Assembly (NCBI GenBank): GCA_005883305.1
Contig: VBAC01000001.1
Location: 2,232,001 to 2,296,000, forward strand
From: Alphaproteobacteria bacterium
Lineage (GTDB): Bacteria; Pseudomonadota; Alphaproteobacteria; Sphingomonadales; Sphingomonadaceae
DNA length: 64,000 nucleotides
Reading direction: 5' to 3'
The notes beneath the pieces are model-generated. The model saw only the letters and a list, made by a program, of their open reading frames with translations, was not told where the DNA came from and did no database searches. Position numbers and translations under genes: made by a program. The first letter of the stretch is position 1; the number at the start of each line of letters is the position of its first letter. Below, in pieces: positions 4,900 through 6,290 of the stretch.

Positions 4900-4998
4900 G
4901 CTCATCCTGAGGAGGGACTGAGCTTGGCGAAGGCCCGTCTCGAAGGACCGTCCTTCGAGACGCCGTTTCGACAAGCTCAACGGCTCCTCAGGATGAGC
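4900..4998. repeat. Palindromic dispersed repeat, family D (GCTCATCCTGAGGAG type)
   Basis: The outer arms GCTCATCCTGAGGAG (4900-4914) and CTCCTCAGGATGAGC (4984-4998) are perfect inverted repeats. Inside are further nested inverted words (TGAGCTTG/CAAGCTCA and GTCTCGAAGGAC/GTCCTTCGAGAC). The whole would fold as one long cruciform or RNA hairpin. It lies between convergent DUF6894 genes. Such elements are widespread in alphaproteobacterial intergenic DNA (general knowledge). Confidence 0.8.
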
Positions 4999-5020: not shown

Positions 5021-5266
5021 TCAGTGCGCCGGCACGATCACCACCGCGTCCGCGAACGGGAGCGAGTGGACGATCGCGCCCCCCTCATTCTCCACGTCCA
5101 ACCGCATGTTGAAGGGGATTCGTCCCTCGAGCGCTTCGGCGCTGAGGATCGAGCGTGCGGCGACCAACGTCTTGGCGACGATCGCCGCGATGTCGGGCAG
5201 CTCGCAGCCTTCCGGATCGAGAAGGATGTCCTCGCCGTCGCGGAGGTGAAAGAAATAATGGGCCAT
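5021..5266 (-). CDS. DUF6894 family small protein (second copy)
   Basis: 81 aa. It begins MAHYFFHLRDGEDILLDPEG and continues with LPD, matching the first copy at 4634 in length and motif order, so the two are paralogues. There is no signal peptide or membrane segment. The ribosome site GAGGAA lies just upstream of the ATG. It is divergent from the third Crp/Fnr gene, and the two leaders share a conserved 45-base motif in inverted orientation (see 5285-5511). The function is unknown; the repeated pairing with Crp/Fnr genes suggests regulation by them, or participation in the same stress response. Confidence 0.8.
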   Translation of the reverse strand: MAHYFFHLRDGEDILLDPEGCELPDIAAIVAKTLVAARSILSAEALEGRIPFNMRLDVENEGGAIVHSLPFADAVVIVPAH

Positions 5267-5284
5267 GCGCTTCCTCGCGTGCCA

Positions 5285-5511
5285 GGCGGGAGCGCAAAAT
5301 CGGTCTCTCAGCCGCCGAGGCCTGGAAATCCCGCTCGGCGATGCCGCCTCATAAACCCAAATCCGTGATCGCTCAACGGTTTATGATGCAGATTGGCTAC
5401 GCGAAACCATCATAGGATAAGATTGTCGCGCGAAAATGTGTTAAGGATGTAAAATCGTCGGGCGGATATTCCGGGCTCCGACGGCTGAGAGACCCCCTTG
5501 CTCGCGCTCCC
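5285..5511. promoter_or_regulatory. Divergent intergenic region with matching leader motifs in inverted orientation
   Basis: Between DUF6894 (minus) and Crp/Fnr (plus) lie long imperfect inverted repeats. In the transcribed direction of each gene the order is GG(A/C)xxCGxCGGCTGAGAGACC, 6-8 variable bases, GCGCTCCCGCC, then the start codon 8-20 bases later. The 13-base core CGGCTGAGAGACC is exact on both sides (5302-5314 as its complement, and 5482-5494). The roughly 150 bases between the arms are AT-richer than the flanks and probably hold both promoters. The arms could be a shared 5' UTR control element, a pair of operators, or the ends of a small mobile element. Confidence 0.6.
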
Positions 5512-5522
5512 GCCCTCGCTCG

Positions 5523-6290
5523 ATGCGGAGATGCGCCATTACCACCGATCCAACATTGAGGCTGATGCTGCGCAAGTTCGAGCGCCGGGCCTCCCTCGAC
5601 GAGGGGGACCGCCAGGCCCTGCTCGATCTTCCGCACAGGGTCCAGACCGTCGAGCCCGCGAGCTACATCCTTCGCGAGGGCGACCGGCCCGACCGCGCCT
5701 GCCTGATCCTTTCCGGCTTCGCCTATCGCCACAAGGTGACGGTCGACGGTTCGCGGCAGATCGTCAGCGTCCATGTCCCGGGCGATTTCGTCGATCTCGA
5801 AGGCGCATTGCTCAACGTCGCCGATCACAACGTCCAGGCGCTGACCCGCTGCGAGCTGGCCTTCGTTCCGCGCGACGCCCTGCGCGCCTTGATCCTCACC
5901 CATCCGAGAGTCGCCATGGCGATGTGGATCGATACCCTGATCGACAGCTCGATCTTCCGCGAATGGGTGGTCAATGTCGGCCGCCGCGACGCCCGCTCGC
6001 GAATCGCCCACCTGCTGTGCGAGTTCGCCCGGCGGATGGAGGTGGCGGGCCTCGCCGACGAATATCGCTACGAGCTGCCGATGACCCAGGAGCAGATCGC
6101 CGATTGCACCGGCCTCACCCCGGTCCACGTCAACCGGGTGCTCAAGACGCTCGACCGCGAGGGGCTGATCCGGCGCGACCGCCGCTTCGTCGCCATCCCC
6201 GATTGGGGGGCGCTCCGCCAGGTCGCCGGCTTCAGCGAAATCTACCTCCACCTCGACCAGGTCCAGCGCGACATCGCCCGGCCAAGCTGA
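5523..6290 (+). CDS. Crp/Fnr family transcriptional regulator (third paralogue)
   Basis: 255 aa as drawn from the first in-frame ATG. An ATG at 5565 (MLRKFERRASLDEGDRQALL) aligns better with how the other two paralogues begin, and neither start has a strong ribosome site. Sensor roll at roughly residues 35-150, SIFREWVVNVGRRDA motif, and C-terminal winged HTH (MTQEQIADCTGLTPVHVNRV). It has no Fe-S cysteine cluster. It is divergent from the second DUF6894 gene across the region with the shared leader motif. The role is presumably a stress or oxygen/nitrogen-type regulon, as for other FixK-like proteins, but the ligand cannot be inferred. Confidence 0.88.
   Translation: MRRCAITTDPTLRLMLRKFERRASLDEGDRQALLDLPHRVQTVEPASYILREGDRPDRACLILSGFAYRHKVTVDGSRQIVSVHVPGDFVDLEGALLNVADHNVQALTRCELAFVPRDALRALILTHPRVAMAMWIDTLIDSSIFREWVVNVGRRDARSRIAHLLCEFARRMEVAGLADEYRYELPMTQEQIADCTGLTPVHVNRVLKTLDREGLIRRDRRFVAIPDWGALRQVAGFSEIYLHLDQVQRDIARPS

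Follow-up and report, generated by a model that had tools for sequence, protein, structure and literature searches.

The two motif copies that precede the divergent DUF6894 and Crp/Fnr genes in the window (the whole 64,000-nt stretch of sphingomonad DNA that was analysed) are parts of one structured leader RNA of about 75–85 nt. Each copy is probably a cis-regulatory leader RNA that works as a default-off translational switch set by a trans factor, a reading drawn from sequence to which we give a probability of about 0.82. Comparison of related genomes establishes the structure, location and distribution of the leader. A regular-expression scan of loci from these genomes yielded 27 distinct instances with the layout (+1 A) UC[AG]CC.. 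P1 .. CUGAGAGA, 2 to 14 nt, GCUCCCGCC, loop, GGAG(C), start codon. Its elements are a 5'-terminal hairpin (P1), the invariant CUGAGAGA and a GCUCCC strand that pairs with the Shine-Dalgarno sequence (SD) as hairpin P2.

The preliminary description placed two sequence blocks in the same order just 5' of the DUF6894 and Crp/Fnr genes, in opposite orientation, and this is confirmed: CGGCTGAGAGACC is exact at 5302–5314 (−) and 5482–5494 (+), and GCGCTCCCGCC at 5285–5295 (−) and 5504–5514 (+). The claimed block spacing of 6–8 nt holds on the DUF6894 side (6 nt) but not on the Crp side (9 nt), and the similarity described as a 45-base match is real but consists of exact blocks of 13 and 11 nt in a wider 58-nt arm. 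This arm is 71% complementary between the two sides, the likeness continuing upstream of both blocks, and the two sides differ in ways that preserve a hairpin, one reading GCCGAG...CTCGGC and the other GTCGGG...TCCGAC; this was the first sign of an RNA. Among the matches listed for the 3.03 Mb source genome, there was no further exact copy of the 13-mer. The covariance model scored the window copies at 61–62 bits (E about 1e-13), far above chance; both are among the 26 seeds of the scoring model, and independent support comes from other genomes. Both window leaders have a predicted fold of P1 plus P2. Their folding energies are no better than those of shuffled sequences (z 1.18 and −0.02), and because their thermodynamic stability is undistinctive, comparative evidence was used instead. 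The features of the divergent region are:

5021–5266, minus strand: DUF6894 gene, 81 aa (Pfam PF21834, E 6.4e-18)
5267–5276, minus strand: SD of the DUF6894 gene, which is the P2 3' strand (sequence and predicted fold)
5284–5342, minus strand: core of the DUF6894 leader RNA (covariance-model match, 60.8 bits; predicted +1 A at 5342)
5288–5295, minus strand: P2 anti-SD strand GCGCUCCC of the DUF6894 leader, pairing with the SD region GAGGAAGCGC at 5267–5276
5304–5311, minus strand: invariant single-stranded CUGAGAGA of the DUF6894 leader (conserved columns)
5312–5319, minus strand: P1 3' arm CUCGGCGG of the DUF6894 leader (P1 covariation, predicted fold)
5320–5325, minus strand: kissing strand CCAGGC in the P1 loop of the DUF6894 leader (perfect 6-bp complement to GCCUGG at 5282–5287; permutation tests)
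5334–5341, minus strand: P1 5' arm UCGCCGAG of the DUF6894 leader, pairing with 5312–5319 (P1 covariation, predicted fold)
5343–5453, no strand: divergent promoter region separating the predicted transcription starts (start-to-start gap of 79–136 nt in 11 divergent loci)
5454–5515, plus strand: core of the Crp/Fnr leader RNA (62.3 bits; predicted +1 A at 5454)
5455–5462, plus strand: P1 5' arm UCGUCGGG of the Crp/Fnr leader (P1 covariation, predicted fold)
5473–5476, plus strand: kissing strand GGGC of the Crp/Fnr leader, pairing with GCCC at 5512–5515 (permutation test)
5477–5484, plus strand: P1 3' arm UCCGACGG of the Crp/Fnr leader (P1 covariation, predicted fold)
5485–5492, plus strand: invariant CUGAGAGA of the Crp/Fnr leader (conserved columns)
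5504–5513, plus strand: P2 5' strand of the Crp/Fnr leader with anti-SD CUCCC, pairing with 5525–5536 (predicted fold)
5523–6290, plus strand: Crp/Fnr-family regulator gene (ORF from ATG 5523; Pfam HTH_Crp_2 9.3e-20, cNMP_binding 7.4e-16)
5527–5530, plus strand: SD GGAG of the Crp/Fnr gene, 7 nt 5' of AUU (5538–5540), aligned to the start codons of homologues

The first ATG of the Crp/Fnr ORF (5523) lacks an SD and is situated between the P2 arms. Translation of this gene may start at a rare AUU codon, since the start codons of homologues align with ATT 5538–5540, 7 nt past GGAG. The window holds three Crp/Fnr genes (3110, 3896 and 5523). Between two convergent DUF6894 genes, a 49-nt inverted repeat (4900–4998; 82% complementary, 1-nt spacer) is probably a terminator or a REP-like palindrome.

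The P1 helix is real, as judged from compensatory sequence change. The covariance model R1, composed of P1, CUGAGAGA and GCUCCCGCC, was built from 26 seeds, which carry both-sided changes at 7/7 P1 pairs (31 such cells versus 9.7 in shuffled controls; one alignment row, L037, was short of one G in this count), and the signal was lost once the partner was shifted by one column. Loci picked by a linear sequence pattern lacking P1 gave 68 both-sided cells versus 10.9 shuffled in 95 matches; this count used unaltered sequences aligned by R1, and the kissing, P2 and folding tests likewise used unaltered sequences. A perfect 7/7 P1 was found at the expected place in 73% of pattern sites and in 3.3% of random sites. 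The mean pairing of P1 in thermodynamic ensembles of the leaders was 0.51.

The bases directly after CUCCC complement the 3' portion of the P1 loop, and the two form a kissing loop or pseudoknot. The kissing pairs include CCAGGC x GCCUGG (DUF6894 side of the window), GUAAGC x GCUUAC, GCAGGC x GCUUGC, GUAGGC x GCCUGC, UUUGGGC x GCCCAAA and GAUGC x GCAUC; the Crp-side window leader has a kissing helix of 4 bp only. This diagonal was top-ranked in an unbiased scan of all registers. Kissing scores of true versus permuted partners were 12.23 versus 9.02 (sd 0.54) and 11.98 versus 10.38 (sd 0.36) in two sets, and held-out loci fetched afterwards gave 10.72 versus 9.00 (0/500 permutations). Compensatory change, as expected of a structured cis-regulatory leader RNA, is thus present in both P1 and the kissing helix. 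The kissing strand abuts the P1 3' arm and its partner abuts the anti-SD strand, an arrangement that would allow coaxial stacking of P1, the kissing helix and P2.

P2 appears to hide the ribosome-binding site in modelled folds. Thermodynamic ensembles of 133 leaders gave a median CUCC-GGAG pairing probability of 0.98, and the median unpaired probability of the SD was 0.003, compared with 0.31 when the upstream leader was shuffled. The base preceding GGAG is G in 49% of leaders versus 18% of controls (666 other GGAG starts from the same loci), and the base following it is C in 65% versus 35%, which lengthens the pairing to GGGAGC x GCUCCC; P2 often comprises 6–8 perfect G-C-rich pairs. Conservation of both CUCCC and the SD leaves P2 only slight independent covariation. 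RNAalifold proposed a tiny GCG-CUCC-CGC hairpin, but it showed zero both-sided change and was dropped in favour of P2.

The predicted transcription start lies at the 5' end of the leader. Relative to P1, there is a TTG at −36/−34 and a TA-rich box at −13/−9, and the A immediately 5' of P1 is 97–98% conserved in both sets and usually preceded by C. Together these fit a housekeeping promoter starting at that A, in which case P1 would form the mRNA 5' end and the leader would lie within the transcript. A search of the DNA between the divergent starts for a shared palindromic operator found a partial AACATAGATTTAG-like box only. At several divergent loci (L022, L025, L037, L216, L231 and L245), a TAAATCTATGTT-like box recurs some 30 nt 5' of the DUF6894 start site; its possible roles are operator and −35 element.

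The leader is widespread in the genus of the window and recurs across the class. A DNA search of 60 relatives returned matches to both leader stretches, again mostly adjoining start codons. R1 found three strong copies in the source genome and was present in 23/26 genomes of the genus, 84/199 of the family and 13/289 genomes spread over the class; in a phylum-wide sample it was present in 25/299, and the matching genomes listed were all Alphaproteobacteria. Copy number ranges from 1 to 9 per genome. The linear pattern CTGAGAGAC N2-11 GCGCTCCCGCC, which does not include P1, occurred in at least 120 stretches of named genomes, foremost Bradyrhizobium and also Methylobacterium, Microvirga, Rubellimicrobium, Phenylobacterium, Mesorhizobium, Pseudoroseomonas, Vineibacter, Afipia and Sphingomonadaceae, and nearly all of these matches score well with R1. 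Two matches labelled Chloroflexota and Betaproteobacteria, among the weakest (27–28 bits), are probably chance. Twelve IMG/VR contigs (L319–L330) also carry the pattern before DUF6894, Crp/Fnr-like or PDTFLG-type small genes, and these copies could be prophage cargo or host flank.

The preliminary description asked whether copies lie 5' of genes or at random, and 180/184 strict instances have a sense ORF just downstream (median distance to the start 21 nt), the fixed position and orientation upstream of start codons that are expected of a cis-regulatory leader RNA. The 142 downstream proteins scanned include about 30 Crp/Fnr regulators, 17 DUF6894 proteins, a few PhyR-like receivers, two ECF sigma factors and one HisKA_2 kinase; the remainder are mostly orphans of 40–110 aa, among them a sphingomonad MDLN family. 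An unannotated Bradyrhizobium family of 50–90 aa with a C-terminal PDTFLGRKTQEPFP stands behind the leader in 26 copies (L115, L118, L131, L142, L143, L153, L174, L187 and other loci). Divergent genes with two outward-facing leaders were found at 11 loci including the window (9 DUF6894/Crp and 2 receiver/Crp), with predicted starts 79–136 nt apart and unrelated intervening sequence; this recurrence makes the window one example of a conserved module. Crp/Fnr paralogues are strongly expanded in the genus of the window (e.g., G015 and G016): a first look gave as many as 24 candidates in a genome, some of them next to DUF6894 genes. In the source genome, two further DUF6894 genes (G000:C1 at about 463.36 kb and 471.2 kb; L318) have 13–14 nt of poly-C just upstream, and one of them also has a degenerate leader with an altered CUGAGAG and retained P1, P2 and kissing strands. 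Phase variation through these tracts is possible.

From these features we infer the start site, the off-state, the trans factor and the direction of control. Transcription from the housekeeping-type promoter would begin at the invariant A, and the leader RNA would form the 5'-terminal P1 plus P2, with GCUCCC capturing the SD. The P1 loop would kiss the first P2-loop bases, allowing P1, the kissing helix and P2 to stack end to end, with the invariant CUGAGAGA linker running across the stacked helices. By default the SD would be concealed and translation off; a trans-acting factor recognising the CUGAGAGA/kissing core would then shift the balance and set translation. In the window, the leaders would co-regulate the divergent DUF6894 and Crp/Fnr pair.

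Our first guess for the trans factor, held at somewhat below even odds, is a small signalling molecule, in which case the leader would be a riboswitch. The compact fold, the long-range helix and the invariant unpaired CUGAGAGA favour a small-molecule aptamer, but a downstream gene set as heterogeneous as this one is unusual for a metabolite riboswitch and counts against one. The fuller proposal, that a new riboswitch class across Alphaproteobacteria binds a global stress or second-messenger signal and exerts translational control of a scattered regulon, is tentative. A mixed regulon of regulators and stress-type genes would also fit control by an RNA-binding protein or a second messenger. The second guess, somewhat less probable than a small molecule, is a global RNA-binding protein that recognises P1 and CUGAGAGA and represses or activates translation of a stress and regulator regulon; a short invariant single-stranded motif beside a hairpin and several copies per genome before unrelated genes are what such a protein would call for, but the kissing helix points to a folded pocket more than to a linear protein site, and no candidate protein emerged. 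A trans-acting sRNA that freed the SD by pairing with CUGAGAGA or GCUCCC would likewise leave two short invariant stretches, yet it would make the P1 and kissing covariation superfluous, and there is no perfect 13-nt antisense partner because the exact 13-mer occurs in just two leaders among the genome matches listed. We consider it improbable.

An RNA thermometer, with P2 melting on heating like the ROSE elements of Bradyrhizobium, would account for an SD concealed in a short hairpin, but it leaves the invariant CUGAGAGA and the kissing helix unexplained, its P2 would have to melt what are often 6–8 perfect G-C-rich pairs, Rfam scans returned no ROSE match, and the downstream genes are not heat-shock chaperones; this reading is quite unlikely. 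A DNA-level operator for a transcription factor acting on both promoters is less likely still: the element is common to divergent promoters, but its place is 3' of the predicted +1, its sense orientation is fixed, and it shows hairpin and loop-loop covariation and SD complementarity. The inverted copies 227 bp apart in the window had also been read as the termini of a mobile element of about 227 bases, of MITE type. Most copies are single, however, all but a few lie in sense before ORFs, they have diverged across the class, and those that are paired flank divergent genes with unrelated promoter DNA between them; no flanking duplications are visible. Membership among MITEs or small mobile elements (paired terminal repeats, target duplications, gene-independent insertion) was rejected on this distribution, and we give it almost no weight. 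The other suggestion of the preliminary description, a common RNA-level control element, is upheld by the compensatory changes in P1, the loop-loop covariation, the SD sequestration and the constant site between the predicted start and the start codon.

The element appears to have escaped description. No match overlapping it was found with Rfam 15 (4227 families) at gathering and permissive thresholds. The searched passages of the B. japonicum sRNA/REP and start-site papers (PMC5082802, PMC4842269) and of the 5-, 26- and 50-genome RNA discovery papers (PMC6429828, PMC8632094, PMC11109978) contain no description of it, and no mention of DUF6894 was found in the literature searched, the coverage of which is incomplete. 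Within that incomplete coverage, we rate the element as a new family of cis-regulatory leader RNA. The occurrence of the same undescribed element before many regulator and small genes across Alphaproteobacteria makes it look like a new class of RNA gene switch. It adds a well-supported leader RNA family to this class of bacteria, and carriers of the leader include Bradyrhizobium, a nitrogen-fixing symbiont, and Methylobacterium, a genus of plant surfaces. Dozens of orphan genes (e.g., the PDTFLGRKTQEPFP small-protein family and DUF6894) would be joined in one post-transcriptional regulon, and the shared leader offers a first handle on the timing of synthesis of these uncharacterised proteins. 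If the riboswitch reading is true, its regulon would comprise Crp/Fnr regulators, DUF6894, PhyR-like receivers, ECF sigma factors and families of tiny uncharacterised proteins.

Several known systems resemble parts of this leader. The preQ1 and SAM-II riboswitch classes have pseudoknot or kissing folds that hide the SD, and SAM-II is also alphaproteobacterial. They share with our element a small leader, a hairpin loop paired to a downstream strand, SD control and a short invariant core, whereas the element has no sequence or covariance match to an Rfam class, other conserved nucleotides and many unrelated downstream genes. Comparative analysis also yielded the cis elements of Corbino et al. 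2005 (PMC1273637), a set of leader motifs from Alphaproteobacteria, but they have other genes and another structure, and those with Rfam models do not match the element. The TPP riboswitch (thi box) has the string CUGAGA in common with the element and nothing else; a match to RF00059 and downstream thiamine genes are both absent. ROSE and fourU thermometers, known in Bradyrhizobium, also place the SD in a 5' UTR hairpin, but they lack P1, the kissing helix and the invariant linker, and the element shows neither an Rfam ROSE match nor a heat-shock gene downstream. For the CcsR or CCUCCUCCC-motif stress RNAs of Alphaproteobacteria (RF02791), the sole score fell well short of the threshold and lay elsewhere in its locus. 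These RNAs share a C-rich anti-SD-like strand and a link to stress with the element, but the CcsR type are sRNAs, whereas the element described here is a leader.
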